Source of the DNA: Mytilus galloprovincialis
Lineage: Eukaryota; Mollusca; Bivalvia; Mytilida; Mytilidae
Reading direction: 5' to 3'
Length of the DNA stretch: 64,000 nt
Assembly (NCBI RefSeq): GCF_965363235.1
Contig: NC_134842.1
Location: 7,219,112 to 7,283,111, forward strand
Under the pieces are notes generated by a model that saw nothing but the letters and a program-made list of their open reading frames with translations, was not told the origin of the DNA and did not search any database. The translations under genes and the position numbers were made by a program. Shown here piece after piece: positions 27,316 through 56,881 of the stretch; position 1 is the stretch's first letter; each line of letters starts with the position of its first letter.

Positions 27316-29707
27316 CTAGTAGTCGTATCCTTGGCTGTAATCTGCAATTAAAGAGTATACCAAATGTACATACAAAATTGTAATTCTTTTGATAGTCAAG
27401 GGTATTGTCACATGATTAATAAATTTAAAGTTGATTTAAAGTGACAGACAATTTATAGAATATAGTTCATGCTATTTTGTTTAATAAGTAATTTGATGAT
27501 ATAACCGTATAATGCATAGAAACAACTGACAGTATTTATATAAAATCCACAACATACACTACACAATTTGATGTGTCTTAGACATGACTTGTTATGTAAC
27601 AATACATGCTTTAAAATGAAGGCTCCACATTTAATTTGTTGCATTTGTACTACTTGATATTCAGGAGAGAATATAACTTATCACGGTGGAGCGAGAAATC
27701 CAGAAGATTGGTTTACATAAAAGTTTGCCAGTATTTATTGGAAAAATATGTATAAAATTGAGAATGGAAATGGGGAATGTGCCAAAGAGACAACAACCCG
27801 ACCATAGAGCAGACAACAGCAGAAGGTCACCAACAGGTCTTCAGTGCAACGAGAAATTCCCGCACCCAGAAGCGTCCTTCAGCAGGCCCCTAAACAAATA
27901 TATACTAGTTCAGTGATAATGAACGCCATACTAAACTCCAAATTGTACACACAAAACTAAAAGTTAAAATAATACAAGACTAACAAAGGCCAGAGGCTCC
28001 TGACTTAGGCAGGTGCAAAAATGCGGCGGGGTTAAACATTTTTGTGAGATCTCAACCCTCCCCCTATACCTCTATCCAGTGCAGAAAAGTAAACGCATAA
28101 CAATACGCACATCAAAGTTCAGTTCAAGAGAATTATGTCCTTCATGTTTATTTTACTACACTAGCTTAAACTATAATACAATTTACCTGCATTTCTTCTA
28201 TAACCTGTAATATTAGAAAAGAGATCAAATGAACTTGTGACTATAAGTGGCATAATATGAGTATCAAATAAAAACTATACGGCACCATTCAATCGTAAAA
28301 TTTACTATTGAACGATTTACTTCAAAATCATCGTAATCAAAAATTTGTATTCTATGATCTAAGACATCATTTATTTTTTCTCAATCGATTTATGACTTTT
28401 GAACAGCAGTATACTACTTTTGCCTTTATCTATTATGTCCAAACTTGCAAAGAAAAAAATATGTAATGTGATACTCTAATTATTACTGTGAATGTTAAAA
28501 GATCGAACAAAAAAAACAAGATGATTATTCCTAAACAATATATGTCAAAACCATCATTACTTGATGTTAAGGTTTCGGAGGTATAATTAAAACAAAACAT
28601 TTATGTAACTTAACTTTAATAATTGTTATCAAGAAGCACATGTGTGACGGACATGCAAATCTACTCATGTCCTCTTTAAAGCAGAATATGCAGATATATT
28701 ATATGAAGAAATTATTTAAATGATAATATTAGTCTAATTTTTACTTACGTCTTTTTCCTCCCATCATGCCTCCCATACCTGCAATGTTGATAAATAGAGC
28801 ATATTATACGACTTTTTAAATATCACACATGTGTCATCCCAGAACACCAGTATGATGCTAAAACTCTGATAGAGCCCGATTTTGGTGAAGGGTTGATACG
28901 GTGTTCCATATTGAAACATAATTATATTTACAACTGGTTAAGATGTTTTAACAAAACACCAGGCTCAACAGTGCCACTCGAGTCCAAACAATTTAAAATT
29001 AACCAATTTCAACAGAACTCGTTGGATAATGTTTGTTACTTTATTTGCTTTGAATTGTTGCCTAAGACAATTAAAATACTTTCTAAAATGCATTCTATAT
29101 ACAATATGCTCATATGTTAAAAAACACCATAATTGAATTAAGAGAGAAAGTAACGTAGTCATACATGCATCAACATTTTTTCATCGAACATAGTTGTATT
29201 TACTAGATGCAGTCCGGTTTCAACAACGAGTGCACACTTATTTGGCAACTGATACCTCTCACAAACTTAAGCTTGTACCAACAAATTTATTTTCTTGATA
29301 TTTTCCATCTTCAGATTTCAAGGTTAACCTTTTGTTTTTGTTTCTGTATAGTTTTTTAAATCTAGTTGACTTAATTAGACTAAAAAAAACTTACCGCCCA
29401 TCATACCGCCGCCCATTCCACCCATCATGCCACCCATCATCCCACCTGGCATGCCACCCATCATACCACCGGGCATACCACCCATCATGCCACCGGGCAT
29501 GCCACCCATCATAGGATGCATTCCTCCCATCATACCCCCAGGCATACCACCCATCATTCCTCCTCCCATCATACCGCCCATGCCGCCGCCCATGCCGCCG
29601 CCCATGCCGCCGCCCATTCCTCCGCCCATTCCTCTACCATATCCGGCGGCATTTACTGCCACAAAGCATACGGCAAAGACTGCAATAACGGTTTGTAGAG
29701 GATTCAT
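27316..29707 (-). CDS. Gene A: secreted glycine/methionine-rich repeat protein with furin-type site and Tyr-rich tail
   Basis: Four coding exons on the minus strand: 29707-29395, 28778-28749, 28204-28187 and 27341-27316, giving 128 residues; all junctions are phase 1. Residues 1 to about 20 form a signal peptide (MNPLQTVIAVFAVCF, likely cleaved after VNA). GMGG and MPGGMMGG repeats follow, then GGKR, then the 18-nt micro-exon RYRRNA and the terminal exon DYSQGYDY. RYRR fits the furin consensus R-X-K/R-R, so release of a ten-residue Tyr/Asp-rich peptide, or maturation of the repeat domain, is likely but inferred. The ATG follows directly after an acceptor (TTTATTTTCAG), and the non-coding first exon ends at 30590. 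I do not know a named homologue; glycine- and methionine-rich shell-matrix or byssal proteins of bivalves are the nearest idea. Antisense Pro-rich open frames are mirror images of the repeat. Confidence 0.88.
27757..28137 (+). repeat. Dispersed repeat R3
   Basis: This repeat starts with TTGAGAATGGAAATGGGGAA and contains a CCTCCCCCTATACC motif near its end. A second copy is at 55864-56247. I recognise it as a common mussel repeat. It lies in the last intron of gene A. Confidence 0.85.
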
Positions 29708-30589
29708 TCTGAAAATAAATGACTGCATATATTAAGCTATATTCATTAAACATTAATATTTACCATTGTATTTCTTTCCTTGTTATTCAGGTTGAAAATA
29801 CCCGCGGACCAAATTCAGTTAGTGCAACTTACATACATATTATATATTTTGTTTTATTTGGACACCGATCAATAATAGTGAAAAGGTCTTTGTTTATTCA
29901 AATATAACTGACACTATACTTAGGCCATTTTCCTTCCAAACGTTATGTTCTGTAAACACGTTCACAATTAGTTTAAAAATTAAATTTGTTCTTATTAGTA
30001 CAAGGGGTTTACTTACGCGTACATGAGATTTTTTACACGTGTAAACGTAATTTTGTATATTTGGATGTTCTTGTATATAAAAAACAAAAAGTTAAAAAAA
30101 AAATTGTGGAAGGCAATGTTGACCTTTAGATTTATCGATGTTTTTACACAACATATAATCTTTCTGAGGTATGATACCGAATTTGGTAGCCAACATATGC
30201 ATGTTTTTGAAAAAAACTTTGATCACATACGTTATAAAGACCAAAATTCTGCTAAAAACAAAAATCATGAGTAGCAAAACTAAATCAGCTTAAATTGGAT
30301 GATGTCATTTTAGCTTAACGAAGCATAACGAAGGTGTAACCTTTGGGTAAATTGGAGAATTAAATGAAATGAAAATTAATAGCCATCATGTATCATTAAA
30401 ACAATACTATACCCCGGATCGGTTTAATCTGATTATAAAAACTATCAAGTTATACTAGTATTAGTTAAAAAAAAAAAAAAGATTTTGATTTCGTGAACAT
30501 AGAAAAACTACAAATCGATCACTAATCTACAGTAAAAAGATTTTTACTCATTTTATTCTGCAATTTTTTTATGAATCTATTTTACATAC

Positions 30590-30636
30590 CTGTGTTAGAT
30601 GTGGATCCGATGGGAAATGACGGCAAATAGTGGAGT
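30590..30636 (-). other. Non-coding first exon of gene A (5'UTR)
   Basis: The exon ends in CACAG followed by the donor GTATGT (GT at 30589-30588). The matching acceptor is at 29710-29709, one base before the ATG. The start is placed about 30 bp after the TATA box. Confidence 0.65.
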
Positions 30637-30660
30637 AAAGATCGATGGTCAGTTTGGCAT

Positions 30661-30667
30661 TTATATA
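30661..30667 (-). promoter_or_regulatory. TATA box of gene A
   Basis: TATATAA on the minus strand (in CTATATAAATGCC), about 70 bp upstream of the first donor site. Genes C and D have TATA boxes in the same relation to their first exons. Confidence 0.65.
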
Positions 30668-30669
30668 GT

Positions 30670-32985
30670 AAAATAACTCGGAAATACAGACATTAAAAAT
30701 AAAGTAAAGTTACACGATTAACAATGTTAAAATGTCTGTGATTACTTTCTATGTCATGTCTTACATGTTATATGTAAAACTTTCATTCAACTGTATAACT
30801 TAAAGATTGAAGGTTAAACAAATATGTGACTTTATAACTGTAGTATTACATGAACTAGTCGTTAAGATTGTGTAAGATTTTTTTGTAATAATCACAGTAA
30901 TCGTTATCCTGTTGTACAGGAAGATAACAAGATGTTTCTTGTAAATGGGAATGACCAATCGAAACAAGGAAACGGTGTTTTATCCCATTAAATGTGTCAG
31001 AAATTTAAAAGTCGTTTGTGTTTATACATGTAATAACTATACGAAGAATTGTTCGTTTGTCTGTCATTGTTTCTTTTAATTATTTTTGGGTTTTTTATAT
31101 TCTGTTGAGAGGTCTTATATAAATTGTACCCGTTCATTCGCCCAGGTATTAACTATATAGTAAAGATAATACTCATTCCAATGTAATTCTTGTTTTCCAC
31201 AACAGTCATTTTAGTTCGTTTTAAAAACGAGTGTGGTTTGGGTGGAAGGGCATTTCAAAGGCTAATTATATATTTTGCCATTTGTATTTTGTCAGCTGTC
31301 TTAGAAACCTATGATGTGTCAAATATTCAATCACAATCATAATTCAGAGACAGACCGTCCCTTTGGTATATTTCGTCCCTAATTTACTGTTATTGTATTT
31401 AAAACGAAAACCTTAATATGAAGATGCAAGATTGCAAGGTGTGTAGAATACATTACCTAACGGAAAACAGATGCTGGTTTATGTATTGAATATATATGAA
31501 AGTGTGTATTTTATTTACCCATTTGTATTCTTCCGTTGCAAATGGAATATGTAAAATAAAAGCAGGGAACCCTCTGGCAGCTGTCCTGGTCTGCTTTTTT
31601 AAGTATCCTGGTGATTTGAAGTAAAGATGATAACCAAATAAGCAAACAATTAAAAATAATTGTTACAGTAGTACATATACACTTACACATCTCCATTATG
31701 TAAATAATATTAATATTGTATCGTTATATGGATTGAAGATTATGATATTGTTATTATATATTTCTAAGTGAAACAAGTCATCATTTACACAATCAAACAA
31801 AATGTGTCTTTTGATGAACACATTACAGACTGTTATTTCTTTACTATCTTAATACGATAAGCATTTAGACAAAATTTCTTCAAATCAAAACAAAATACAT
31901 TACGGAATATATAATCTTGGACCAGGAGACTGTAATATTCTGTAATAATTTTGTAGGCGAAACGGGCGGCTGGCGCAAACAAAATCCAATCTTGGTATCT
32001 ATGATGAGTTTATTTGTTAGTCCCCCAGGTTCAACAAATTGTCATTAGATAGTAAATGAATACATTTTACAAACAATCACAAAACAAACAAAAATTTCGT
32101 TTTGACAAGGCATAGAATAGATTGAGTCATATTATTTTTTTTTAAACCAACATGTTGTAGAAGCATTGTACAGATTGGGTTATTCTATTATTTTAGAAAC
32201 GTAAAGGTATACTGACTCATGTGGCTATTGCCAATAACATTAGATACTCTGTTATAATGCATTACTAAGAATAAAGCCTGTACACTAAAGTTGTAACTCA
32301 GGGGTGAACCTAATGTTTTATAAGTAGTTATTCGCTTTGTAGGTTGCAATTCTGTTAATATACACAATGCAATTTCCCACTTCTTTTGCGGCTAAAACAG
32401 TACCATTTTTACTATGAAGTTTTGTGAAAATTAGTATCCCAGAACGGAAAGTTTATATGCACTACTATTTTATTCAAAGGTCAAAATATAGGGCTGGGTT
32501 GCATATTTTCAACATGTATATGCCGTGAACCTCTAAGAGTTTAAACTTATTTTCTAATATGACGTGCTTCTTTAGCTTTGTAAAGAAACCATACTTTATT
32601 ATCCAATAAAATTAGTTTTCCCATGCGTATATTGACTACGGCAGAAAAATGAATTTTATTAAATTGGTATACGCATTTAATGTATTTCATTAACTTGGGA
32701 CACTTTTAAACACTAAAATATGATACACATTTTGTTACTAATACTTTTTCAATGACAACAATGTGTTACAATTCGAAATTGACATATTTGACCTAGATAC
32801 CGCAACGTTCATGTTGGCTGTTCTAACTTCAAAACCCCTCCCACTGAAAAACACGTTTCATCTATCTTGTTAAAAGGCATGTATATAATAATTTCATTAA
32901 AACATATGATCTGACGATAAAATATAAAATAAAGTATAGGTTAATTATAACTGTTGTACTGAAATAACAAAATTGTTTCATATTT
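30670..32985. other. Gene-less region upstream of gene A
   Basis: This is AT-rich DNA with a SINE-like fragment at 31955-32018. I see no exon, tail or micro-exon of the glycine/methionine-rich family here. Confidence 0.5.
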
Positions 32986-33001
32986 ATGATAAAATGGATT
33001 G

Positions 33002-33073
33002 ACCCTAGCAGGGAATCGAACCCCATTCTCCTATATAAAAAAATAGGCGTAATTACCAATATACCACCAAGGT
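33002..33073 (-). tRNA. tRNA-like sequence, probably a pseudo-tRNA or SINE head
   Basis: On the minus strand 72 nt fold as a cloverleaf. The acceptor is ACCTTGG/CTAGGGT (7 bp, two wobbles), the anticodon stem CCTAT/ATAGG, and the T arm TGGGG-TTCGATT-CCCTG. The pol III A box (TGGTATATTGG) and B box (GGTTCGATTCC) both fit consensus. The anticodon loop appears to have 8 nt of mostly T and the D stem is weak, so it is probably not a working tRNA. It sits between perfect 12-bp inverted repeats (32990-33001 and 33077-33088). Confidence 0.4.
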
Positions 33074-33214
33074 TTCCAATCCATTTTACAAATGCAACAA
33101 GATTGTCTCTCAGTATTAATTTTAATCATCATGTAATACAGCATTTGAAATCGTCAGATGCACAAAGGCGTACGTGCCCTTTTATCAACTTTACAGAGTG
33201 TAGCTACCGCAAGT

Positions 33215-33333
33215 TTAGTCCAAATAATTATGACGTCTGGCAAGGCTATTTTTTTTTTTCTGGGACGCCGTTGAAGGAAGGCGTCCCAGAAAAAAATTAA
33301 AATAGCCTTGCCAGACGTCGTAATTATTTGGAC
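33215..33333. mobile_element. Foldback MITE with 10-bp target duplication
   Basis: This 119-bp element has near-perfect inverted arms (GTCCAAATAATTATGACGTC on the left, its complement on the right, with one change) around a GGGACGCC...GGCGTCCC core. It is flanked by TACCGCAAGT at 33205-33214 and 33334-33343, a 10-bp direct repeat, as expected for a target-site duplication. Confidence 0.88.
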
Positions 33334-33812
33334 TACCGCAAGTATAAATGAATCTCTGTCAAAGGGCCCCTCCTGCCAAGTCTCGAATGTCAGCACAACT
33401 TTATCAAGGAATCCTCTATCAGATATGAACATATTTACCAATGCTACAATAACCGGCGGAACATTTACCAAATTAATTTAGTAAATAAAGATCGCACTAC
33501 CCGATTCTCCTTGTGCGTCCACCGCCATTGACAACTGACTTGAAAATGTGCGTGTCAGAAATTGACCTCAAAGAAAAAGACGTTGAATTATAACTTTTCC
33601 GTTATTTTGTGACACAAATATTGTTTAAGTTAATAAATTTGTTAATTTCTGTTTCAATTTTAAATTTTAGAAATACACAACTTTGCAAAATTAAACTGGT
33701 TTAAACTAGTTGAATAAAAATCGACAGGGAGGTTGATGGAAGAGCCTACACAAATATTGTACCCTTGAACACAGCGAACATAGAAATTACCGTAATTGTC
33801 CTAATCAGAATC

Positions 33813-33903
33813 GAAATAATTGATGCCAGCTATACTTTATTGTAGTTTTAACATGGGTAAAATGTTAAAACTACAATAAAGTATAGCTGGCATCAATTAT
33901 TTC
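33813..33903. repeat. Perfect 42-bp hairpin with 7-nt loop
   Basis: Arms 33813-33854 and 33862-33903 are exact reverse complements (starting GAAATAATTGATGCCAGCTA). The loop is GGGTAAA. No mismatch is seen, so the inverted duplication is recent or maintained. Confidence 0.93.
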
Positions 33904-35040
33904 TTAACTAAAGTTCTATACTACCCTTGCCTTCATTTTTAGACCTCATGAGAATTAAAATTTAGGCACTACCATGTTTCTGTCCTGGTTACATCTCCAA
34001 TTGATGTCTCTTTGAGATGACACACAGAGATCATTAATGGGAACCAGTACGTCAACAAATTAACATGTGAATGAATATTATATATCGCCACAAAAAAGGA
34101 GTGGTTTGAGAAACAGTTGTCTTTACAAAGTGCAACCTCTAAGGTTTTTGAACCAAAGTGAGTTATCTGTGTATATTGTTTGCTGTATCATTTAATAGCT
34201 GACTATATGATACGGGTTTTTCTATTGTCTAAGTCCGTAAAATAAAGCAGATACGTAAATCCAGTTCATTTATTTCGATTTTGAATAGAAATATCAAGCT
34301 TTTCGTAGTCTCTTTTTTAATCGCGTAACGGTTAAAATACGTTATTCAGAAATGGAATGCATACAAAAGATTACTTTTAATACAGGAAACATATATTAAA
34401 TAACATGATATAGATAAATTTTATGCTAACAAGGAACACTGTATATTCTTGGATCTTCGTTTTTATATCTTTATCAGGAAGCTTAATACCCCAATTTATG
34501 ATAGAAGAGAAGATTTTTCATTTCAATGCACAAAAATGTCGACATTTACCTCAAAAGCTAGCATAACCTTTACAAATTACCTATTACGCAGCAATACAGT
34601 TAGGGTACTGTAGTGAGATCATTTAGGATGGCAGATTTTGTTACTAATATTGATTCACTAATAGGGTTTTTGAAAAGAAAAAAACACATTTGTTCTAACA
34701 CTAGTTGTTGGCACGATACGGGAGACTTTCATTTTAGAATTTTCATGTAGCCCGGTATTTTTGATATTTTACTTTTCACTAAACAGAAATAACTGTGCAT
34801 GTTATGTAAGCATTCAGAAGGCTGTAATTTGGACCATTTGTTATTGAAACAAAAACTCTTTATGATAAAAAATATTCAAGTTTTCAAACAAGTATTAAGT
34901 TTTATAAGACATACAAATATTTATCGAGGTATAATATCATTCATGCAAAACGCATTTCGTTTTCATTATCATCATAGTCATCCGAAACTCTGTCAGTAGT
35001 TTAGTAACATGTAAGCTGTTTATACATTGTATAATATACT

Positions 35041-35179
35041 GTGGATTCATTTATTTTCGTGGTTTTGCCGGAGTCAGCATATTAGCCTTTAGTAAATTCG
35101 TTGAATATTTAATTTCGAGGTTCATCTGCATCCACTTAATCCACGAAAGCTGGTTTCAAACCAAAAATAATGAATCCAC
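35041..35179. mobile_element. Short MITE with GTGGATTCATT ends
   Basis: This 139-bp element starts GTGGATTCATTTATTTTCG and ends with the inverted match AAAATAATGAATCCAC. The flanks are AT-rich, so the target duplication is unclear. Confidence 0.75.
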
Positions 35180-35280
35180 ATAATATATGTTTATATTGTT
35201 TTGTGGCGAAAACATCATAAGTATGTTTTACTTGATTAGTCCTTTGTGGTTCCTTTGTGCCTGGACGGTTTTATTTATTA

Positions 35281-35411
35281 AGAAGATGTGGTATGGTTGC
35301 CAATGAGACAACTCTCCACAAGACACCAAATGACACAGACATTAACAACTATAGGTCACCGTACGGTCTTCGACAAAGAGCAAAGCCCATACCGCATAGT
35401 CAGTTATAAAG
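35281..35411 (+). repeat. R1 5' fragment
   Basis: This is the first 130 bp of the R1 repeat, starting GATGTGGTATGGTTGCC and ending near CATAGTCAGTTATAAA. Confidence 0.85.
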
Positions 35412-35699
35412 GGACTTGTTCTTCAGTCTGTTGCTTAGGTCTCTAAGTGTCTAGGCATTTTGTATTATGAACATTAGGCAATTAACATTCGTAGGAGACA
35501 CGTACTATACGTAGTGTTTTAGGACGGTTTAGTTGGTGAAGTTTTTACGGTGTTGAAGTTTTTACGGTGTTGTCTTATTTGTAAAACTACTGGTGGTATC
35601 GTAGTTATTACAAATTTATATAGTCACTCGTCTCTTAGTCTTTTCTATTTTTTGTTTAATTTCTTTTGTATTAGGCATGTTACGGTCCTCTAAAATGCT

Positions 35700-36600
35700 G
35701 CTATATTCAGTGCTGTACAACTTTGTACCTTTTTCACTTTCGATCTTTTATATCTGGGCGTTATGTATTCGGGTTTAGTTTTCTGTAATTAGTTAATGCT
35801 TCAGTTTCTTTATGTATATCCCTTTCATATTCATTTGATAAAGTTTACTGTTTGCAATAGCATGAATTGTTCTATATAATAAGAATGTTCTTATCCCGGG
35901 CATAAAAACAATGCCGTATTTGGCGAAACCTTTTCAACTTTTGATCTTCAGTGTTGTACAACTTTGTACTTTTTTCACTTTCGATCTTTTATATCTGGGC
36001 GTCACTTGTAAGTCTTGTGTGGACAAGGCGCGTTTTTGGCGTATTGAATTTTAAACCTGATGCTTTTTGTTATCTATTAATCATGTTTTTCTTTGTCTAA
36101 TATGTTCTATTAATTTGTATTGTAGTCCTGTAATATTATGTTGTCATTTCAATGTTATATTTAACTTTGCCATTAAAGTGCGAGGTTTGGCATGCCACAA
36201 AACCAGGTTTAACCCACCACTTTTATTCCCCTTTAAAAGTGTCCTGTACCAAGTCAGGAAGATGGCCATTGTTATATTATTGTTCGTTTCTGTGTGTGTT
36301 GCATTTTAACGTTGAGTCGTTTGTGTTTTCTCTTATTTTGAGAAATTGAGATAAGACGTGGCACGGTACTTGTCTATCCCAAATTCATGTATTTGGTTTT
36401 CATGTTATATTTGTTATTCTCGTGGTGTTTTGTCTGATGCTTGGTCCGTTTCTGTGTGTGTTACGTTTCGGTGTTATGTCGTTGTTCTCCTCTTATATTT
36501 AATGCGTTTCCCTCGGTTTTAGTTTGTTACCCCGATTTTGTTTTTTGTCCATGGATTTATGAGTTTTGAACAGCGGTATACTACTGTTGCCTTTATTTAC
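35700..36600 (+). repeat. Dispersed repeat R2, long copy
   Basis: Same family and orientation as 24115-25062, ending GGTATACTACTGTTGCCTTT. Confidence 0.8.
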
Positions 36601-39652: not shown

Positions 39653-41847
39653 TCAATAGTCGTATGAATAAGAATCTGAAAGAAAAGAAAGCCAAAATAA
39701 GTAAACGTCAGATGGAAATAGAAATATAAATAAAAATGTTGACATTAACTATTGCAGCGTGTATCATTTATTGTTATTCTCTTTTTTTTCTTTTTTTTCT
39801 AATTTGAAGCAAATAAAACTTCACATTGATTTTATCTATTGACTGCAATAAAACAAATTAACTAAATTTTGTGTTCTTATTTAGCTCTTGTTGTGACATG
39901 ACCTTTTGTTAGGCTTTCATCAATCAATCAATACATGAATCTTAATGAGATGACAGGTACATTTGTAGCAATGACAGTCATGCAGTAATGTATGTTTTAC
40001 TTTAATTTGCCATTTGAGACAAAAAATTAGTCTTTTTTAAATAAATATAAATTAATTCATTATAATAGATATCAGGCTAATATTGTTGTAAGCCAGCTTC
40101 TCTTTTCGTCCTTAAACGACTCTTACGTGATGTTTGAATAAAATAATCAAATAAAGTACGAAGTTGAAAAGCATTGAGGACTCGTAATTCCGATAGGTGT
40201 TTCCAAATAGAGATAATAACTATATTAAATGTGAGTTATAAATACCTGTGGCTCTTTTATATCCTGCAAAATAATATATATCAATATACCAATATACTTA
40301 GAAATATGAATGTGTGTGTTAGTAACAACATGAGATTTAGTGATTTGTTTCGTTGTTTCAATTGTTTTCCTCGGTTTTTAGTTTGTAATCTGGATTTGTT
40401 TTCTCTCAGTCCATTTTCGAACAGCGGTATACTACTGTTGCCTTTATTTTAATGTGTACTACATGTTCAACTCAATATGAAAAGTATTAAAAACAATCAT
40501 ATGAAATGAGAACAAATAATGAAGGATCATTCTTTAAATAATTCACAAAAGAAAAAGCAAGTGTCACGAAATCTTAATATGACATTTCTATTCAATTGTT
40601 CAGATACAAATAGAACATTCGATAACCGTATAGTACATTATAACAAATTGAATCTTCAATGGACTATGACTTACTTTTGCCACCTCCCATGCCTCCGCCC
40701 ATACCACCGCCCATTCCTCCCATACCACCTCCCATAGCTCCGCCCATTCCTCCGCCCATACCTTTAAGAATAGAAAACATATATTGAAATAATACACTAA
40801 ATCTTCCCATAAGAACATGTATTATTTATACAATATACATGGGTTTTTTAAAACTATTATAATATGTTGGACTATTTTGAGATATGCATTTTACTTTGAA
40901 TATTATTTTGAATATACGCATGTATTTTTGCAAATCAATTAAACCCAAGTCCATTTTTTATGTGCTTTTCCACTGTCAGGTGCCTTTTACTCAATTCTTG
41001 TTTTTGGTTGCTGTATGCCATGTACATTTATTTTTGTTAATTGTCTTGTCCTAAATCAGGCATTTAGTTTTCTCTTTTGAAAACATTTATATCAAGGAAA
41101 GCATGATAAGAAATACAAGCTCTCGAATATTGTATCAACTGGAAAAAAGTATATATTAATTATACAGAAAAAAACGTAAATGTAGTTAGCTTGAACAAAT
41201 TGAAATGGAGAAACCAGCAAGTCCTTGACACATTTGTAATAATTGCTAATTATGTGTTCACTTATTTTCAATAACATCTTTGTATTAGAGGTAATAATAA
41301 TCCATGACAGTCAGACATAAAATGCGTTTTAATTACCTCCCATCATAGCAGCCATCATTGCACCTCCCATCTTTGGCATTGGCATAGGCATAGCCATTTC
41401 CATAGGCATTGGCATTCCCATTGGCATTGGCATTGGCATCGGCATTGGCATTGGCATTGGCATTTCCATTGGCATCGGCATCATCATCTTACCCATACCC
41501 ATACCACCTCCCATACCACCCATCATACCGCCCATCATACCACCGCCCATTCCTCCTCCCATACCACCGCCCATCATCTTACCCATACCGCCTCCCATGC
41601 CACCACTCATCATACCGCCTCCCATACCGCCACCCATTCCTCCTCCCATCATACCGCCCATACCGCCACCCATTCCTCCTCCCAACATACCACCTCCCAT
41701 GCCGCCTCCCATCATACCACCTCCCATACCGCCTCCCATTCCTCCTCCCATCATACCACCTCCCATACCGCCACCTTTACCATAACCAGCACCATTAACT
41801 GTGGCGAAGACAGCAATAAATGTGACAACGGTCTGGATGGGATTCAT
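39653..41847 (-). CDS. Gene C: secreted methionine/glycine-rich protein with Met-Pro repeats, furin-type site and Tyr-rich tail
   Basis: Four coding exons on the minus strand: 41847-41337, 40761-40675, 40263-40246 and 39675-39653, giving 212 residues; all junctions are phase 1. Residues 1-19 are a signal peptide (MNPIQTVVTFIAVFATVNG). GMGG and GMMGG repeats run to about residue 120, then a Met-Pro block (MPMPMEMPMPMP and similar) to about residue 159, then MMAAMMGG. Exon 2 gives more GMGG ending in GK. The 18-nt micro-exon gives RYKRAT, a furin-type R-X-K-R site, and the last exon gives DSYSYDY. Roughly one residue in three is Met. The function is not known; an extracellular structural role is inferred from the repeats and signal peptide. 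An acceptor (GTTTTATTTCAG) lies 9 bases before the ATG, and the promoter exon is at about 43815-43845. Confidence 0.88.
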
Positions 41848-43814: not shown

Positions 43815-43845
43815 CTTTAGCTGTAGGGAGGACAGGTTAAATTGT
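43815..43845 (-). other. Non-coding first exon of gene C (5'UTR)
   Basis: The exon ends CAGCTAAAG followed by the donor GTATGT (GT at 43814-43813). The next acceptor is at 41858-41857. Similar in sequence to the first exon of gene D (shared TGTCCTCCCT). Confidence 0.7.
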
Positions 43846-43869
43846 GACCATAATCAGAAACTTAACATC

Positions 43870-43876
43870 TTTTATA
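43870..43876 (-). promoter_or_regulatory. TATA box of gene C
   Basis: TATAAAA on the minus strand, about 55 bp upstream of the first donor. The surrounding promoter region aligns with that of gene D at 56875-56881. Confidence 0.75.
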
Positions 43877-43879
43877 AGG

Positions 43880-45140
43880 AATTAGCACAGGAAATAGTGA
43901 ATTCAACTTTAACAACTTGTAAAATATAAACATGCTAAAACATAAGTAATATTTTTATGTGATCATGTATAACTTGTACCTGTTAATTTTATTGTATGTT
44001 TTAACATGTCAAACTAGTTCTTGTTACACGGTATGATTGATGTTATGTTGGTCTTTGATTGTAATAGGCGTGTTACGAAATAATATATACTTGACGCTGA
44101 GGTTGACAAATTTGACTTTGAATGTTAGAATCGTATCAAAACATAAAAGTGATTTGAAGATTTGATCTAATATACATCAATTAAAATTTAAATTTTAGTG
44201 TCTATTTGTTCATATAACAGACTTTTTTTTAAATATTATTATAGACAATGCTGTTGTGAATATTTAAAATTCTATTAATTCATAATATGTGTAACGAAGC
44301 CAAGATAAATTATTTTGGGGAGATAAAAACAAATAACCTGTCAACCTTGAAAAAAAGCTTTATATCATTGGTGTTTTTTTTATCTTGCGTTTTCAATATT
44401 ATTAGTGAAGGACATTTCAACATAATCAAGGTTAGATCTTTTGAAATTTTAACACACAATGTAACCCCGTCTTATCATATAATTAAAATAATATTAGCGG
44501 TGGGCCGGATGACGAATATCTTAGCGGGATCAGTTACCCACTTTAATTTGTGTAATTTACTTATCTGACAGTGTTAACCTAGGGCTTTTTAACTTTGCAC
44601 AATCTGTGTAGTATGTACAAAATAAAAAAATAAATGTGATCGTCCCTTTATAGATACATTTCGTGAAATATACTTATATACTTGAAAATAAAATAAAATT
44701 TGTGATTTTTAACGAGCTCTTGTTACTATTTGCAAATGAACTTATGCATATTTATCTGTTCATATATTCGCCAGGGACACAATTTCGCTGTTTTATGATT
44801 GTGTGGTGTAAAAACGTATTTCTTAGTATTTTTTTGACTGATTGCCCCTCATTTCACTTCTTTTCACCTTTCAAATTTCTGGTATTCATCTAAAATGAAA
44901 TTGATTTGATAAATATTGTTTAAAGCAACGGTTATTGGGTTTTAAATAGTTGTTTAAAAAACGGCGAATATGTGTCCCCCTCTGACAAAACATCAGGAAA
45001 TTTTAAATAGCCTTTAAGCTAACTTTTCAGCTAGATATAATATTTCCCATATAACTTAGAACGTCTATGTGTAACATTAAACATGTTGATCAATTTCTGT
45101 TAAATTGCTTGTGATTATAGAATGGGGATTATATTCATAT
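43880..45140. other. Promoter-side flank of gene C
   Basis: Up to about 44290 the sequence is homologous to the upstream flank of gene D (56885-57310), including the motif CATGTCAAACTAGT in both. Beyond that I see nothing identifiable. Confidence 0.6.
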
Positions 45141-46772: not shown

Positions 46773-48850
46773 ATATAACACGTCTAATACAACGTTACTG
46801 GGTCATTATCGTTACATCTACATCAAGATTATATTCTTTAAAATGTGACCTTTAGTTTGTAACCAGGATTTGTTTTCTCTGCGGCGATTTATGACTTTCG
46901 AACAGCGTCATAGTACTGTTGCCTTTATATACTCCTTTGAATGTCAGGAATTTATACATCATTGGATGCACGGAATTCATACATCATGTCCGATCTTTGC
47001 TATTATGTTTCCTAATGGACAAAAAGTGAAGATTACGTTTTCGTTACAATATATAGTTTGGTCTCTTTTAACTGCATGTGATTAGATGTTAACTGTATGC
47101 AATTGAAACTGATTGTATTTTGTTTGTATTTTGTTGATCGCTTTTGATATAGAATAAGGATTGTTGAATGAATGCCACAGAAACGGCTATCCACTAAAGT
47201 CCGAATGACATCATTTGCAACTACATTTATATGTCACATTCGGAGTATGAAATGCTTTTCACTTTACTTGAGGAACTACTTGGACTACTCACTTCGATGT
47301 GCGATTGCGTTTGATTTAGTTCCACTTCAGTATTTCTATTATTCTGGTGTTTGCGTCGTTAAATTGATTTGTGTCTCTCTATTTTAATTTGTAACCCGAA
47401 TTTGTTTTCTCCCAATCAATTTATGCCTACTAATTAGCAACATACTACTAATGACTTTTGTCTCATAAACTAATAGACAGTTGTTCGGCGATGACATGAT
47501 TTATGAAAAAAGCTTTCTACAAATGTCCGTTTTTAAATGTCAAAACTATAAAGAAACTTAGGTTTCAACTCCCTCAGGCTAATTTGACCATAGATGGTTT
47601 TTTTTTTTGGTTTTTTTTTTGTATGTCTTTTTTGTAAAAACTAGTTGTCTTGAATATAGGCCAAGAGACTTTAGAACGTTATGTTATGTAATTGTTTTCC
47701 GTACTTTCGCGCTCACTGTTTTATCTAATATGTAACTTAACGTTATGTTACGTATCTAAAAAGTAAAATCGCAAACAAAACTGAACTTAGAGGAAAATCA
47801 ATTCGGAAAGTCCATAATCACATGGCAAAATCAAATAACAAAACCCATCAAAAACGAATGGACAAGAACAGTCATATTCCTGACTTGGTACAGGTATTTT
47901 CAAATGTAGAAAATAGTGGATTAAACCTGGTTTTATAGCGCTAGCCCTTTCACTTTGATGACAGTCTCATCAAATTCTGTTATATTTAAATAGATGCGTT
48001 AACTAAACAGACACAATAAATAAAATAGTCAAAATATTGGTACATCAGTCATCATCAAATAACAATTTTAAAAAGAACAATTTAACAGAAAACAAAAGCA
48101 TCTATCTACAAACACATTCATTGATTTGTGTGTCTGTCGTCAGACATTTTTATACGTCACATAAATTTGTCGTTCAATGTGCATACAAACAATTTTAAAA
48201 TTTACATAGGCAATATTTATCTTACGACCATAAAGCATCTTAACTAGGAAGACGTTATTTTCTTTCACAAGTATTTCAAAGTTAAAAACCCTCAAGATAC
48301 TCGTCAATATGACAGTTCTTGTACATCTTTGGCTGTCAAATATTTGTTTTTGCGTTTTCCTATTGACGATAAATCCCGAAATTTGCTGTAGACGAATGTA
48401 TTTTATAACGTGTTGTTTTTATTTTTACAGCTTTCATCAATGGGTAAAACCCGACCAATTATTGATGCAGGTAAGTCCTGCTGAGTGATTCGGATACAAA
48501 AGGGTTTTGTTTTAACAACGTTGTTTCCATTCGTTACCTTTGTGCTTATGTTTTTGTTTATCATTGTTTTAATATTGTACGGAGTCTGTACTGCATCGGG
48601 AAGGTGTGGGATGATATGGTAAGTACAGTCAAATACAAAACCATTGTTATTGACGTCTTTGTCGATATAATCTCAACAACAAATATACATTTGTATGTCT
48701 GTTTGAATTTTTTAGTCATTTGTGATGAATGTTTATTTGTGACTTCTACTATTATATCCACGATGTCTGTTTGAGTTTCGCATTCAATTTTGTCAATTTC
48801 ACGGAATTATACCCGTCATACAAGTAAGATTGTTAATAAGATAATAATCA
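46773..48850. other. Gene-less repeat-rich region
   Basis: This region includes another R2 3' end at 46850-46930, T-rich runs at 47597-47625 and an inverted R5 copy at 47765-48205. No exon is recognised. Confidence 0.5.
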
Positions 48851-48857
48851 GTTTTAA

Positions 48858-49384
48858 GGTGATGTGGGAGTCTAAAATAAAAAGGATAGAATTTATTCAT
48901 TGTTTGCCAAAAATTAGTATCTACTGATATATGTTCAAAAATATAATAAAAACGATAAGTCACCGCGCATTTTCTCAAGCTACAAGTTGTGACAAAATGA
49001 CACATTTTGTATGGATTATACAGGAATAACACCATTTTGTGATTAGAATCATCAAAAGAAAAGATAGGGTCACCGTATGTTTTTTTCCCGCTAAAATACA
49101 AAACAGGAAAATTCAATGTAGATTCCTTCAGAAAATGACCTGTTTTAGAGTTACCTCCCCTTAAAATGCCAATTTTAAAAAAAAAATGAAAACAACCAAA
49201 GATAATCTATACTTGCAAAAATATTAATATTTATAAGTTATATTCTTAAAAATTGGTTCTTTTTAATGAAATTCATATTAAATATCCGCATTCCTGCATC
49301 AAATTTTGCTAACTTGATAGAAAATCTGAACCTTAGATTGTCTGATTTTTACAATCCAAGATGGCGAAAGGCACCCATACCACC
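48858..49384. mobile_element. MITE with TTAA target site
   Basis: This 527-bp element starts GGTGATGTGGGAG and ends GGCACCCATACCACC (inverted match). TTAA flanks it at 48854-48857 and 49385-49388. The ends resemble those of the MITE at 19281-19553 (GGTGGTA type). No transposase is present. Confidence 0.75.
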
Positions 49385-49464
49385 TTAACTCACCATTCTC
49401 TTCGGATAATGTCTGTATTCAGGATTATGGCAGTTATGTTCATTCGTTCTGTTGATTGATAACG

Positions 49465-49697
49465 TTTGATTTTGACAGATTCAACCCACCAATTTTTTCT
49501 TAAAATGTCATGTACCAAGTCAGGAAAATGGCCATTGTTATATTATAGTTCGTTTTTGTGTTGTGTTTCCGTTGTGTCGTAGTTCTCTTATATATGAGCG
49601 TTTCCCTCAGTTTCAGTTTGTAACCCGGATTTGGTTTTTTTCTCAATCGATTTATGAATTTCAAACAGCGGTATATTACTGTTGCCTTTATTTAAGC
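49465..49697 (+). repeat. R2 fragment
   Basis: A shortened R2 copy from the TTCAACCCACCAATTTTTTC motif to the TTGCCTTTATTT end. Confidence 0.75.
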
Positions 49698-49957
49698 ACT
49701 TGCTCTTTTTTAATCAACATAGCAGTTATTTTTTTAAACAATGTTGATACCATGGATATTGTCTTCTCTCAGACTTTTTGATAAAATGATTTACAAAGAC
49801 GCTCCTCAACAAACTTTCCTTATTGTACATATGGAGCATTATATAGAAATTGTTATAATCGACAACATGACTTGCATAGTATTTATGTCACGTTTTATGT
49901 GTCGTAAATCAAGATACATGAGTTCATCTAGATCTAAATAGGGTGTATGTTTCTTCA

Positions 49958-50061
49958 TTTCGTGTGATGTATAATGAACGCATGTTCGGTTTGTGGCGTA
50001 AAATGTGTATTTCGTGTGATGTATGATGAACGCATGTTAGGTTTATGGCGTAATATGTGTA
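49958..50061. repeat. Tandem duplication, 52-bp unit, two copies
   Basis: The unit contains TTCGTGTGATGTATAATGAA followed by CGCATGTTCGGTTTGTGGCG; the second copy starts near 50010 with a few changes. Confidence 0.85.
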
Positions 50062-50660
50062 TTTCTGCTACTTTTATGTACTGGCAATTGCATTTAAGGT
50101 GTGATTGTAATGACTCAACGCAATTCTGAGATAGTTATACAATATGGTAATGGGCCAATCGTAAGAGACAAGGAATTTACCAAAAAAACTCCTGGTTTTT
50201 ATTGTGTTGTTGGGTCATTTTTCTATGGCATTTTCCTAAACATCTATTTTGAATTATTTAATTTCAATTATATTTAAATATGATTGCCGTATTACTGTTG
50301 AAAGGGATAATTGTGCGGTCACAATCATGCACACACCTAGCGATATTCTTTATACGACTGTCCCAAACCATGCTGTTGGATTTTTTTCTCTTTTAAATTG
50401 TTTATTTATTTAGACAATGTCGTCATGAACAATTATCAAATACTTATTACAATGAAGAAACCAATAATATTGTCGACAAAATTTTTACTAGCTCCTTATT
50501 CACCAACCGTGTCATGATAAAAGTTGATGCATTTGCTGAACAGTAAGGAATAACCCATGACAATGTTTCCTCCAATGAATAAAGGTGTTGTATCGACTAA
50601 ACAGTAATTCATATAAGGGGTGAACATCATAAGAAAACAATTTAGAAACATGTATAAACA

Positions 50661-50666
50661 TTTATT
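50661..50666 (-). terminator. Poly(A) signal of gene D
   Basis: AATAAA on the minus strand, about 53 nt after the stop codon. Confidence 0.7.
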
Positions 50667-50718
50667 ATAATGTACAACAATGGTAAGTTTCGGACTAATA
50701 CGACTTCTATGGTGGTGC

Positions 50719-53700
50719 TCAGTAATCATATGAATAAGAATCTGAAAGAAAACAAAATCCACATGAGTAAACAATAAGTATGAAAAAAAAATCGACTTAT
50801 GTTTCCTTATGCTTACTAAGGGGGGTTCTCAACTCTACGACTAAAATAGATTTTGCTTGTTTATTTTCAAAATTCTTTGATAAAATATTTGCTTTGACTA
50901 CCATAACCACGTGGTTGTTAAAAGTGTGTTAGCTTCTATTGTCGTACCTCTAATGTTTTTTTTTCGTAATATATTGTAGTTGTATAAAGTTATAGAGCAT
51001 TTGTTCATTTATGTATTGATTTATGTATATTAACCATTTGTTCACTGCTGGTGTCTGAGGATAAAAAAACTTGAATCTGATACAAAATAGTGTAATTCCC
51101 TTTTAAGAAATGATTATAGTCTGCTAAATAAATATAAATGCTGGTTCTACATACCAGTAGATCTTCTATATCCTGCAATTTAAAAAATACGTGTTTATCA
51201 ATTTATTGACTTTTATATTGATACAAGATCTATAAATATTTACACTTTCTATATAAAATTATAAAAAGACTTTGTATTTTTGTCAAATAAGTAACCACAA
51301 AAAAAGTTCAAATAATGATGATATAAGCGATTCAATAGTTCATTATTATAAAAATTATTCTGATATGATATGCATATCAAAGAATACGTCAATATGATTG
51401 ATTGAAAGGGTATTTTGTAGAGGATCTGAAAGTCATTAATTTGTAGACGACGTTGACAGACAAGTTAGTTACGATAATGAAACACACTGTTTCGACGTTT
51501 CACATATTTATTTTCACTTCGCGTTCATCTTCTAATTAAACAAGAAACACAAAACATTTATTTGAACCAAAAAAATATATGAAGAAGCCATGCCAATTCA
51601 GTGACACAAATATACAGACAAAATAAAGGATCAAAAGACTTTATGAAGGATAATATTGTATTTTTAACCGAACCACGTCACTCATAAACATATCATAAAA
51701 GTCCTTTTTACTCTGATTAAATCTTGAATGAACTATGACTTACTTTTGCCTCCCATTCCCATTCCTGCCATTGCTCCTCCCATTCCTCCCATTGCTCCAC
51801 CCATTCCACCGGCCATTCCTCCTCCCATTCCCATTCCTCCCATTGCTCCTCCCATTCCTCCTCCCATTCCTCCTCCCATTCCTCCTCCCATTCCTCCCAT
51901 TGATCCGCCCATTCCACCGGCCATTCCTCCTCCCATTCTTCCGCCCATTCCGCCGCTCATACCTATGTGGAAACAAGACATATATTGAACATCATATACA
52001 CTTTACATAATCAATACAAGTAAACAGATATTGTGTACAATATCAACGTTTCATTCATAAATATGATAATGTGTGTCTTACTTTTATGCATGTACAACTT
52101 TAAAATATATAAAATTCATCTTAGCTTATAATCGTGTCTAAATGTATACATTTATTTGTTAAAAGCATTGTCATTGATATCATTATAAAATGTACATTAC
52201 ATGTATCATGACTTTTATTTTTGTATAAGTCTTTTTCGTATTTATATTCGTATTAATTTGTAGGTTTTCAATACACCCGCATGAATCGGTTTTTGTATCA
52301 TTTGTGAAAGGTACGCATCTGGTGCAAGAAAATTGGTACCGTTAATTTTATTACTACCACTGGGTCGATGCCTCTGCTGGTGGACTATTAGTCCCCGAGG
52401 GTATCATCAGCCCAGTAGCCAGTACCGAATTTTTTGTGTTATTAAAATTTGCTGTTACAAAATGATAGAAATTATTATAAAATAAGGAATGTATCTCCCT
52501 CATGCAAAGCTCTGATTCCTTCCACGGATTTGGCTATACTTTTTGGACCTTTTGGATTATAGCTCTTCATCTTTTATATAAGCTTTGGATTTCAAATACT
52601 TTGACCACGAGCATCACTGAAGAGACATGTATTGTCGAAATGCGCATCTGGTGCAAGAAAATTGGTACCGTTAATTTTATTACTTGTAAACATATATATT
52701 ATGTCACATCAATGAATGGATGATACAAAATGGTGAATTTTGTGTTTTCTCCTATACAGCGTGCACAACAATTAATTGAAAAGTAGGAGAAGAAAATGAA
52801 ATCAATTTTATTTACCTCCCATCATGGCAGCCATCATTTTAGCTCCCATCATTTTTGACATTCCTGGTGGCATTTCGATTTCCATTTTTGGCATTGGCTT
52901 TTGCATTGGCATAGGTTCTGGCATCATCATCATTTTAGCCATAGCTGCGCCCATTCCTCCCATACCACCTCCCATTCCACCGCCCATACCGCCTCCCATT
53001 CCACCCATACTGCCTTCCATTTCCATTCCAGCGCCCATTCCTGCGCCCATTCCAGCGCCCATCATACCACCGCTCATGCCGGCGCCCATCATACCACCGC
53101 CCATTCCACCGCCCATCATTCCACCTCCCATCTTTGGCATTGGCATTTCCATTTCCATTTTTGGCATTGGCATTGGCATAGGTTCTGGCATCGACATTGG
53201 CATTTGCATTGGCATAGGCATCATCATCTTACCCATACCACCGCCCATTCCACCGCCCATACCTATATGACATGAAAATAAATAAATAATATCATTAACA
53301 CTTTACATAACCATAAATTATAAAAATAAGGAGATGTGGTATGATTGTCAATATCCACCAAATTAAATTAAAAAAGGGATTTACATTAATATTGAACACA
53401 ATACAAATCGGTTTTGTTTATGTAGGTATCTTACGTTTTCACTTTCCCTAACTTCAACATGAAATACATATTTTTTTTTTTAAATATATTACATTTAATG
53501 TCAGACTTACGACATGAAATTTATTACATGTAATCGCAAACTTTCGACACGATTTACATTGATTTTTTTATTCAATTCGTATCTGATCGTTTTTGATTGA
53601 CTATATTTAAATGACAGGTGAATTATTTTTGTAAGAGGTATCATGCTTAAACATATATATTGTATTATCTGCGGGCAATGAATGGATTATACAAAAGGGT

Positions 53701-54658
53701 GAAGTTTCTCGACCGTACAGCAAACAAAACATTGAATGGAAAAATGTAATTTAAATTTTAAAAAACAATTCTAATTACCTCCCATCATTGACATTGGCAT
53801 TTGTTGTGGCATTGCCATTTGCATTGGCATCGGCATCATCATCATCTGACCCATTCCACCGCCCATTCCACCCATACCACCTCCCATTCCACCTGGGCCG
53901 GCTTCCATTTCAACCTGCATTCCTTTTCCACCGCCCATTCCACCGCCCATTCCACCGCCCATCATCCCACCCATACCGCCCATCATCTGACCCATACCAC
54001 TGCCCATTCCTCCCATACCGCCTCCCATTCCACCGCCCATCTTGTTACCAGCAGCTGGAGCGGGTTTCATTTCAACCTCCATACCCATTCCGCTGCTCAT
54101 TCCTCCCATACCTCCTCCCATTCCACCGCCCATTTTGTTACCAGCAGCTGGAGTGGGTTTCATTTCAACCTCCATACCCATTCCACCGCCCATTCCTCCC
54201 ATACCGCCTCCCATACCACCTCCCATACCGCCGCCCATTCCACCGCCCATCTTGTTACCAGCAGCTGGAGCGGGTTTCATTTCAACCTCCATACCCATTC
54301 CACCGCCCATTCCTCCCATACCGCCTCCCATACCACCTCCCATACCGCCTCCCATTCCACCGCCCATTCTGTTACTAGCAGCTGGAGTGGGTTTCATTTC
54401 AACCTCCATACCCATTCCACCCATACCGCCTCCCATACCACCAGGAGCGGCTTCCATTTCCATCTGCATACCTTTTCTACCGCCCATTCCACCTCCCATT
54501 CCACCGCCCATACCACCACCCATCATTTTACCCATACCCATACCACCCATACCCATACCACCACCCATCATACCGCCGCCCATACCGCCACCGTAGGGAA
54601 AACCATTTACTGTGACGAAGACAGCCATAAATGTGACAACGATCTGAATTGGATTCAT
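50719..54658 (-). CDS. Gene D: large secreted methionine/glycine-rich protein with furin-type site and Tyr-rich tail
   Basis: Five coding exons on the minus strand: 54658-53779, 53262-52816, 51962-51744, 51172-51155 and 50741-50719, giving 528 residues; all junctions are phase 1. The signal peptide is MNPIQIVVTFMAVFVTVNG. Exon 1 holds GMGG repeats with four copies of a module MEVEMKP(T/A)PAAGNK at about residues 84, 123, 162 and 193, flanked by KGMQ(M/V)EMEA elements, and ends in MPMPMQMAMP. Exon 2 holds two Met-Pro blocks (MPMPMQMPMSMPEPMPMPM and similar, with KMEMEMPMPK) and ends MMAAMMGG like exon 1 of gene C. Exon 3 is GMGG ending in GK. The micro-exon gives RYRRST and the last exon DSYSYDY. 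That all five exons belong to one transcript is inferred from matching phases and gene C; two overlapping genes are unlikely because only one signal peptide and one tail exist. Confidence 0.85.
52315..52684 (-). repeat. Repeat R4, inverted copy inside gene D intron
   Basis: Same element as 43029-43431 in opposite orientation, with GGTGCAAGAAAATTGGTACC at both ends (52321 and 52650 regions). It lies in the intron between exons 2 and 3 of gene D. Confidence 0.85.
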
Positions 54659-55863
54659 TATGAAAGACTGAAATAAAAGACGAAATGGTTGTTAGGAAAA
54701 GAAACAAATATTTGTAATTCATTTGTTTTTTCTTTATTGTCTGCTAATATTGAAAATAATTTCATTAGAAGATATTGTTTTGCTTTCCTGACATCGTGTA
54801 ACATGTGTAATCTATTAACACTGTTTAATATTCGCGCAAGAGGCAAAAGAAACAAAAAAGGGAATTTAAACTCATAAGTAAAAAAAACCATTTTACGTGT
54901 ATCTATTATTATTGAAATAGTTTTAGGCAATAAGAATATTCATGAAATATATTTCAGTGATCTATAGAATAAAAATAAATGATAAGACCAATCAATTTTG
55001 TTTTTATGTATAATTTTGATTAAAAAAATCTCTATGGGTAACCATGTTATATTTCAAGCTACAAGTCATGCAAAATTTCTAAAATGTGCATAGATTTTTA
55101 ATGAAAAAAAACACAATTATGTAAGAAAAAAAAGTTAGAATTTTGCAATATGATATCAGAAGATGGGTTTTGTTGGGAATATGGAATATATCTACACATT
55201 ACTTTGTGTCTCAAAATGTATGCAATAAATTATTCTGATATTTGACTGCTATTCAACAATCAAAGATAACAGAATACAGTTCAGCTAGATTAAGTGATAT
55301 ACTTATTATGTATTCAAATACTTAAACATCCTTGCTTTTTAATTTTTCTTTGTGTGGTTTGAGCACTCCTGGTTTATCTACATAACGTTTTTCAAACGAA
55401 TCATATTTATAACGTTCAACATTCATTTTTATTGTAACGATATATGAATGTCTATCAATATATGTAAAATAGAGACAAGACAATTAATGATAATGTTTTG
55501 GTTTTAATTGATGTTTTTTTAAACCTACATTAGAATAGTTACAACAAATTCACGAGGGTATTTTGCATTTTTTAATATGCAATGATTATTGTAAATGTGT
55601 TAAAGATATTAATCAAGTTATGTACAGCCTTATTTCCTTTCGGTTTAAAATGTATGTATTCAACAGTTTCTTATAGGAACTATCACCTAAACGTTGAAGT
55701 AAAGTTTGATGCATATTGAATCTATTCTATGTATAAAAAAATCAGATAAAAACCAGGAAAAAACGAGGAAAAATTCCCAGTTATTGATTTTAAAAATGTG
55801 GTAGTTCAGACCTCATATTTTTATTTAAAATATATCGAATAAAATTTCTATATTTTCCATAAA

Positions 55864-56247
55864 ATTGAGAATGGAAATGGGGAATGTGTCAAAGACACAA
55901 CAACCCGACCAAATAAAAAACAACAGCAGAGGGTCACCAACAGGTCTTCAATGTAGCGAGAAATTCCCGCACCCGGAGGCGTCCTTCAGCTGGCCCCTAA
56001 ACAAATATATACTAGTCCAGTGATAATGAACGCCATACTAATTTCCAAATTGTACACAAGAAACTAAAATTAAAATAATACAAGACTAACAAAGGCCAGA
56101 GGCTCCTGACTTGGGACAGGCGCAAAAATGCGGCGGGGTTAAGCATGTTTGTGAAATCTCAACCCTCCCCCTATACCTAACCAATGTAGAAAAGTAAACG
56201 CATAACAATACGCACATTAAAATTCAGTTCAAGAGAAGTCCGAGTCT
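55864..56247 (+). repeat. Dispersed repeat R3, second copy
   Basis: Same family as 27757-28137, starting TTGAGAATGGAAATGGGGAA. It lies in the 5'UTR intron of gene D. Confidence 0.85.
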
Positions 56248-56797
56248 GATGTCAGAAGATGTAACCAAAGAAAATATACAAAATGACAATAATACATAAA
56301 TAACAACTGACTACTAGCAGTCAACTGACATGCCAGCTCCAGACTTCAATTAAACTGACTGAAAGATTATGATTTCATCATATGAACATCATGCACAATC
56401 CTTCCCAACGTATGTTTCTGTTCAGGAAAACGAAAAATAAATGTTGGTTCGTTAAAGGATACTACTAAATGTTTTAAATATGTCATGTACAATACTTATG
56501 CATTGTATAATTTGAAGACGAAATCGTTCGGGGTGTTTTTTTTAATTGCAGTTAATGAAATAAGATATTAAGTAATTTCAGCTGAATTAACTGGTAGCCT
56601 GTTCTTAATTAACTTTCAATCAAAGTCAAATATTTGAAAGCTAGGTATGAAAAATGAATATCACGAACCCTCATATGCTTAGCAATTCCTTTTAAATAAT
56701 AAACCAACCAATCTAGGGTCATTATTACCTGATGGAGGCGAAACCTTAGTTAAATTGTCAAAACACCAAATAGTAAATTTCTATTAAAACAACCTAC

Positions 56798-56850
56798 CTT
56801 TACTTGTAGCAGTGAGATGCTATGGTAATCAGGGAGGACAATCAAGTTGT
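56798..56850 (-). other. Non-coding first exon of gene D (5'UTR)
   Basis: The exon ends ACAAGTAAAG followed by the donor GTAGGT (GT at 56797-56796). The next acceptor is at 54669-54668, nine bases before the ATG. Confidence 0.7.
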
Positions 56851-56874
56851 GGCCATATTCAGAGACTGGACACC

Positions 56875-56881
56875 TTTTATA
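56875..56881 (-). promoter_or_regulatory. TATA box of gene D
   Basis: TATAAAA on the minus strand in TTATTATAAAAGGTG, in the same setting as in gene C. Confidence 0.75.

Follow-up and report, generated by a model that had tools for sequence, protein, structure and literature searches.

We analysed a 64,000-nucleotide (nt) stretch of the Mytilus galloprovincialis genome (contig NC_134842.1, positions 7,219,112 to 7,283,111; this whole stretch is called the window, and coordinates are counted from its first letter) that carries a tandem set of genes for Met/Gly-rich proteins. Three of these genes, A, C and D, lie in the window and a fourth, E, lies beyond its right end. Judged from the DNA and with a rough probability of 0.45, they encode a family of secreted, probably disordered structural proteins of the hinge-ligament or shell-matrix kind that would be joined to one another at their ends. 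We regard the family as probably a lineage-specific group of Met/Gly matrix proteins with fixed ends, and the evidence for this comes from the structure of the genes, from the placement of their tyrosines, and from the constraint on their last codons.

Gene structure of the family

Genes A, C and D lie on the minus strand at 27316-29707, 39653-41847 and 50719-54658, respectively, and their exon chains and splice junctions were rebuilt by script from the DNA. The spliced models gave proteins of 128, 212 and 528 residues, respectively, and all internal coding junctions were GT-AG and in phase 1. Each of the three genes showed the same layout: a signal-peptide-like start with the sequence MNP(L/I)Q, a Met/Gly-rich body, an 18-nt micro-exon present in all three, and a last exon of 26 nt in A and 23 nt in C and D. 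The exon chains of the original prediction, with their protein lengths, micro-exon and tiny last exon, were thus reproduced, as was its claim that the same two ends are kept on very different bodies.

In gene A, the first coding exon (29395-29707), which was also matched in the whole-genome search, encodes the signal-peptide-like MNPLQTVIAVFAVCFVAVNA followed by Tyr23 and the Met/Gly body; it is followed by exon 2 (28749-28778, MGGMMGGKR), the micro-exon (28187-28204, RYRRNA across the junctions) and the last coding exon (27316-27341, DYSQGYDY and stop). Gene C starts with an exon (41337-41847) coding for a signal-peptide-like start, Tyr22 and a body of Met/Gly and Met/Pro type, and continues with body exon 2 (40675-40761, ending GGGK), the micro-exon (40246-40263, RYKRAT across the junctions) and the last coding exon (39653-39675, DSYSYDY and stop). 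The first coding exon of gene D (53779-54658) encodes a signal-peptide-like start, Tyr22 and a Met/Gly body with 117-nt repeats, and is followed by body exon 2 (52816-53262), body exon 3 (51744-51962, ending GGK), the micro-exon (51155-51172, RYRRST across the junctions) and the last coding exon (50719-50741, DSYSYDY and stop). The last exons of all three genes were found both in the spliced models and in the genome search. Gene E was detected in a regional scan of the window plus 100 kb on each side (264 kb); it lies at 69873-72134 on the window scale, that is, at 5873-8134 past the right end of the window, 5.9 kb beyond it, and encodes 261 residues with an RYRRAT micro-exon and a DSYSYDY tail.

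The body is carried by two exons in A and C and by three in D, and every body exon after the first starts with GTATG and has phase 1 on both sides, so that a body exon could be gained or lost in frame, as the extra body exon of D illustrates. When the reading frame was followed past the donor of body exon 1 of C (41337) and of body exons 1 and 2 of D (53779 and 52816), a stop was reached within two codons (MMGGN or MMGGK, then stop); retention of these introns would therefore yield proteins without a tail. The C-terminal ends read KRRYRRNADYSQGYDY in A, KRYKRATDSYSYDY in C and KRYRRSTDSYSYDY in D. All have a basic patch of the form KR-Y-(R/K)R (KRRYRR in A) and then a Tyr/Asp stretch ending in YDY, with the tail of A (DYSQGYDY) deviating in the middle from the DSYSYDY shared by C, D and E. 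Terminal codons placed in such tiny exons are something that gene finders can miss.

Composition and placement of tyrosine

The bodies of A, C and D consist of 42-55% Gly and 30-35% Met, with 5.5, 8.0 and 6.3% Pro, respectively. Each of the four proteins has five tyrosines. The first of them, residue 22 or 23, comes right behind the presumed signal peptide, the other four fall within the final 13 residues (the final 12 in C, D and E), and the bodies hold none, even in D where the body is 491 residues long. The only Cys is residue 14 of A, within the signal-peptide-like stretch, and C, D and E have none; after the signal peptide, Phe is absent from A, C and E, and D has only Phe20 at the presumed mature start. 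From the hydrophobic signal-peptide-like start we infer that the proteins are secreted. As far as it can be read from sequence, the placement of tyrosine agrees better with a chain that is cross-linked through its ends than with the precursor of a peptide.

Asp is confined to the tail in all four proteins, with two residues per tail, and in every tail a Tyr directly adjoins an Asp. The Tyr/Asp stretch could thus be sulfated on tyrosine or be otherwise acidic in the mature protein, bind calcium or mineral and anchor the chain to crystal or chitin; charged ends do occur in shell proteins, for instance the basic C-termini of shematrins as given in the excerpted source (PMC11358866). Since two Asp are all that each tail offers and a strongly basic patch adjoins them, we consider such an anchor improbable.

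Genomic clustering of the family

Whole-genome searches covered 1.385 Gb in 331 contigs, and the match counts are lower bounds. The first coding exon matched at least four loci, namely A, C, D and E (four matches among five candidates scored). The tail exon of C, D and E, with up to three mismatches allowed, gave at least three matches, which were C, D and E, against one match for a reversed control pattern, while the tail exon of A gave at least two matches and its control none. One of these two was A itself and the other was A', a second copy of the last three exons of A located at 3710-5305 on the minus strand. This copy comprises exon 2 with one base different (5276-5305), an identical micro-exon (4565-4582) and an identical last exon (3710-3735). 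Since the genome searches matched cluster members only, the family, as far as these sequence searches reach, is a single cluster, ordered E-D-C-A-A' in the direction of transcription. Two earlier patterns were uninformative: a tail pattern stayed at chance level (6 matches versus 7 and 7 in the controls), and an ill-fitting micro-exon pattern gave 7 matches versus 2.7 expected, none of them a micro-exon. A short tail pattern of 12 nt had a further match in the 264-kb scan, on the plus strand at 92314-92325.

No Met/Gly first exon was recognisable for A' in the 22 kb between A' and A. The search for a first exon gave no candidate at the tighter threshold and five at the loosest, which is no more than random pieces give, and none is claimed. 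Among the five were short signal-peptide-like frames with phase-1 donors upstream of A' at 11483-11561 and 6351-6405 (minus strand), not above chance. A' may use a different first exon or may have lost its own recently.

Constraint on the tail

Between C and D, the seven tail residues are identical although their codons differ at three places, all synonymous, and three random changes in the tail would all be silent with a probability between 0.005 and 0.016, according to which transition bias is assumed. The tail exons of C and E are identical, so E does not provide an independent case of constraint. The amino-acid changes in the micro-exon among C, D and E are K/R, which keeps the R-X-K/R-R motif, and A/S. 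The introns flanking the micro-exon were no more alike between C and D than shuffled sequence (0.56 and 0.59, with a mean of 0.57 after shuffling in both cases). Somewhat greater likeness was seen in the 100 bases that precede the tail (0.64, shuffled maximum 0.62) and in 70 bases of the 3' untranslated region (0.69, shuffled maximum 0.61). In the first 25 codons, C and D show six amino-acid and four silent differences, which points to weaker constraint on the signal end than on the tail.

We also compared A with A'. Only 1 of 74 coding bases differs versus 138 of 773 aligned non-coding columns (Fisher p = 2.4e-5), and the single coding difference falls in a split Gly codon and is silent if the phase is kept, indicating that the terminal exons were kept while their surroundings drifted. 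By these sequence comparisons the tail is constrained. The view that the tail is functional, put forward in the original prediction, is supported by the purely synonymous change between C/E and D and by the near-frozen coding bases of A and A' amid drifting introns. Selection in fast-evolving low-complexity matrix proteins would then act on a few terminal codons. It could be argued that the Met/Gly exons are never joined to the micro-exon and the tail exon, and that these two are chance or decayed stretches of DNA, but the same micro-exon size, order, phase and GT-AG signals recur in four genes, constraint stands against drifting introns, and no other copies of the tail were found elsewhere in the 1.38 Gb, which makes this explanation very hard to credit.

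The convertase motif and the fate of the tail

Each of the A, C and D proteins contains exactly one R-X-[KR]-R motif, which spans the micro-exon, and the same motif was seen by eye in E and A'. Nine to ten residues follow it. The fit to a proprotein convertase site and the Tyr/Asp-rich remainder of 9-10 residues had both been predicted; the first is borne out, with the motif surviving the K/R exchange that separates C from D/E, and the second is exact. Published sources are used here in excerpt, and what is said of them refers to those excerpts. The shell protein Pif is reported to be cleaved at RMKR, Mytilus BMSP is also cut in two (PMC11291548), and an RIKR site was predicted in Pmarg-Pif (PMC3091754). 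Given the reported cleavage of Pif and BMSP, a convertase step at R-X-K/R-R is plausible here by analogy.

Such a step could work as a propeptide switch, in which the tail would hold the sticky Met/Gly chain in solution along the secretory pathway until a convertase cuts after RYRR or RYKR at or after secretion, whereupon the chains assemble and the tail is discarded. The single, conserved motif of each protein speaks for this switch, as do the cleaved or predicted sites of Pif, BMSP and Pmarg-Pif; a tail that is thrown away has, however, no obvious need for a conserved YDY end, and we hold the switch to be rather doubtful. The convertase could instead free a Tyr/Asp peptide of 9-10 residues with a signalling role of its own. 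The site and the length of the remainder fit this exactly, and A', which keeps micro-exon and tail with no recognised Met/Gly first exon, fits a tail that matters alone. Yet the lack of a first exon for A' also counts against a signalling peptide, each low-complexity precursor of up to 528 residues would hold a single copy, the tail end carries no amidation signal and the body is of matrix type; a signalling peptide is therefore unlikely. Among the roles that the original prediction had offered for the tail, that of a retained cross-linking end gains from the confinement of Tyr to the two ends, whereas that of a released peptide loses ground, since the motif alone cannot show cleavage and shematrins retain a basic patch beside Tyr.

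End-linked chains as a proposed explanation

Because the composition resembles that of abductin and of Met-rich matrix proteins, we propose that the proteins are secreted as flexible chains and become linked through their ends. The body would be the flexible chain, with a length of about 90 to 490 residues that is altered by gain and loss of repeats. The fixed ends would be one Tyr at the mature N-terminus and a C-terminal cassette made of the basic patch and the Tyr/Asp stretch ending in YDY. These ends would join the chains into a network through oxidative coupling of tyrosines and pairing of basic with acidic stretches, so that chain length would set the stretchiness and leave the joints unchanged. 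A bolder version, which we put forward as speculative and less probable, is that of a natural rubber linked at its ends (telechelic): its chains, about 90 to 490 residues long, would carry reactive Tyr at the two ends only and have their C-terminal joints encoded on tiny exons behind a convertase site. One protease step would then set the timing and density of the network, and repeat gain and loss would tune the mesh. If the ends are indeed cross-link joints, the family would form a natural series in which chain length runs from 128 to 528 residues at constant joints; it would allow rubber theory to be tested on a biological material and could serve as a template for elastomers of the Met/Gly type.

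Several points weigh against end-linked matrix chains. Were the tyrosines scattered at random, all of them would land within the first 6 or the last 15 positions of the presumed mature chain with a probability of 1.8e-4 (A) to 7e-8 (D), but these values make the case look stronger than it is because the genes are paralogues and the bodies were amplified from Tyr-free repeats. A cut at the convertase motif would remove three of the four C-terminal tyrosines, so that each chain end would keep a single Tyr in its vicinity. A, C, D and E have neither the Phe repeat nor the Ala-rich two-Cys N-terminus of abductin. The promoter of A shows no likeness by blastn to those of C and D. Finally, a word search of the main text of the M. 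galloprovincialis shell proteome paper (PMC4517812) found no occurrence of 'glycine', 'GMGG' or 'shematrin', so that presence in the shell matrix gets no support from that text.

Comparison with known matrix proteins

A likeness in composition exists to abductin, the hinge rubber of Argopecten irradians, which is described with a Gly/Met repeat (GGFGGMGGGX) and with two of its three tyrosines in the N-terminal part, where Tyr is thought to cross-link (PMC13052691); abductin is said to adopt polyproline-II conformations (PMC12571646). The proteins studied here share with it a Gly/Met-rich repetitive body with a GMGG core and few tyrosines, and in all four a Tyr lies close to the N-terminus. They may differ in the 5-8% Pro of the body in A, C and D (abductin is described as having very low proline, with no threshold stated) and, comparing descriptions, do differ in the C-terminal basic and Tyr/Asp cassette, which the excerpts do not mention for abductin. 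A search of the mussel's own genome for a Phe-bearing repeat gave no match, an empty result that carries no weight. In Pinctada, most proteins identified from the insoluble residue of nacre, prism and ligament contain a Met-rich region, and in the insoluble fraction of nacre it was tyrosinase that scored highest (PMC7591529). The Met-rich insoluble proteins of Pinctada fucata (LMP, NU-5 and others; PMC7591529) and MRNP34, known to us by name only, are Met-rich matrix proteins like the bodies described here. Going by their descriptions, they are set apart by regions rich in Glu, Asp, Ser or Gln, which occur in NU-5 and others, and in that the excerpt describes no shared tail with a basic site.

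Shematrins are lineage-expanded Gly-rich shell proteins with the C-termini RKKKY, RRKKY or RRRKY (PMC11358866, PMC4897951). In the mussel proteins, the KR-Y-(R/K)R patch is internal, is followed by 9-10 residues and has its own micro-exon, and the body is Met-rich; the C-terminal shematrin motif was not seen, so that by description the two groups are distinct. Pif and BMSP are likewise shell proteins that are cut into working parts, but they are large and have VWA and chitin-binding domains, whereas A and C, the two of the four full proteins searched against Pfam, gave no match. The low-complexity proteins shown in the M. galloprovincialis shell proteome are GRS-, AGS- and GA-rich (PMC4517812). 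On sequence grounds the family is neither abductin nor shematrin, and resembles abductin in composition and in its N-terminal Tyr.

The statement in the original prediction that no described system has this exact layout stands insofar as no system compared here has the same combination, but it passed over abductin, the Met-rich ligament and shell proteins, the shematrins and the R-X-K-R site of Pif. Mollusc matrix proteins already offer examples of repeat families, conserved or expanding, of Met/Gly elastomers and of R-X-K-R sites; the three together, the tiny exons and the restriction of tyrosines to the ends were not found described in the literature searched. No mussel GMGG protein was found in that literature either, with most subscription journals outside its reach.

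Relatives in sequence databases

A profile built from E, C and A (D was left out) gave 13 matches, among them four (P0002-P0005) that are related to A's first exon. They represent two distinct exon sequences, of 66 and 86 residues with different repeat numbers, three of the four being identical over the exon, and in all four residue 23 is the sole Tyr of the exon. They stem from European Nucleotide Archive (ENA) and Joint Genome Institute (JGI) records, on contigs of 3.1-3.3 kb. By this sequence likeness, the family exists in other sequenced material, where it is known from first exons alone. Three of the other nine matches were inspected (P0001, P0006 and P0007) and rejected as members, as they seem to be unrelated proteins that contain GMGG. 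With P0004 as the query, neither viral_contigs nor genome_contigs yielded a relative. In the PDB, searched with A only, a cyclin-T1/Tat entry at E 0.027 was taken as a chance match. A protein search with C gave one bacterial-looking chance match, and one with the last 40 residues of C gave none.

Promoter regions and other features around the cluster

Upstream of the coding exons, gene C has a conserved promoter region (43815-44169, minus strand) with a TATA-like box at 43876-43870 and a putative non-coding first exon ending at 43815, and gene D has one at 56798-57165 (minus strand) with a TATA-like box at 56881-56875 and a putative non-coding first exon ending at 56798. These two regions are 74% identical over 349 columns, and that of D is 77% identical over 283 columns to the sequence upstream of E. 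This likeness of 74-77% suggests that C, D and E are co-expressed. For gene A, a TATA-like box at 30667-30661 and a putative non-coding first exon with its donor after 30590 would occupy 30590-30667 (minus strand).

Several related frames are intermixed with or lie beside the cluster, at 19576-26122 (plus strand) and, in the right flank on the window scale, at 76960-77547 (minus), 84227-84790 (minus) and 99752-100327 (plus); they resemble what we take to be 3-beta-hydroxysteroid-dehydrogenase/isomerase genes. A dispersed element occurs with 91% identity in the last intron of A (27752-28132) and the first intron of D (55859-56237). Palindromes were seen at 33813-33903 and 33216-33335, with 42-nt arms that are 100% and 44-nt arms that are 93% complementary. 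Close by, at 33001-33073 (minus strand), lies a transfer RNA (tRNA)-like sequence with an unassignable four-base anticodon, possibly a tRNA-derived repeat. Finally, a 73-bp tandem array of 8.5 copies runs from 63381 to 64000 and reaches the end of the window.

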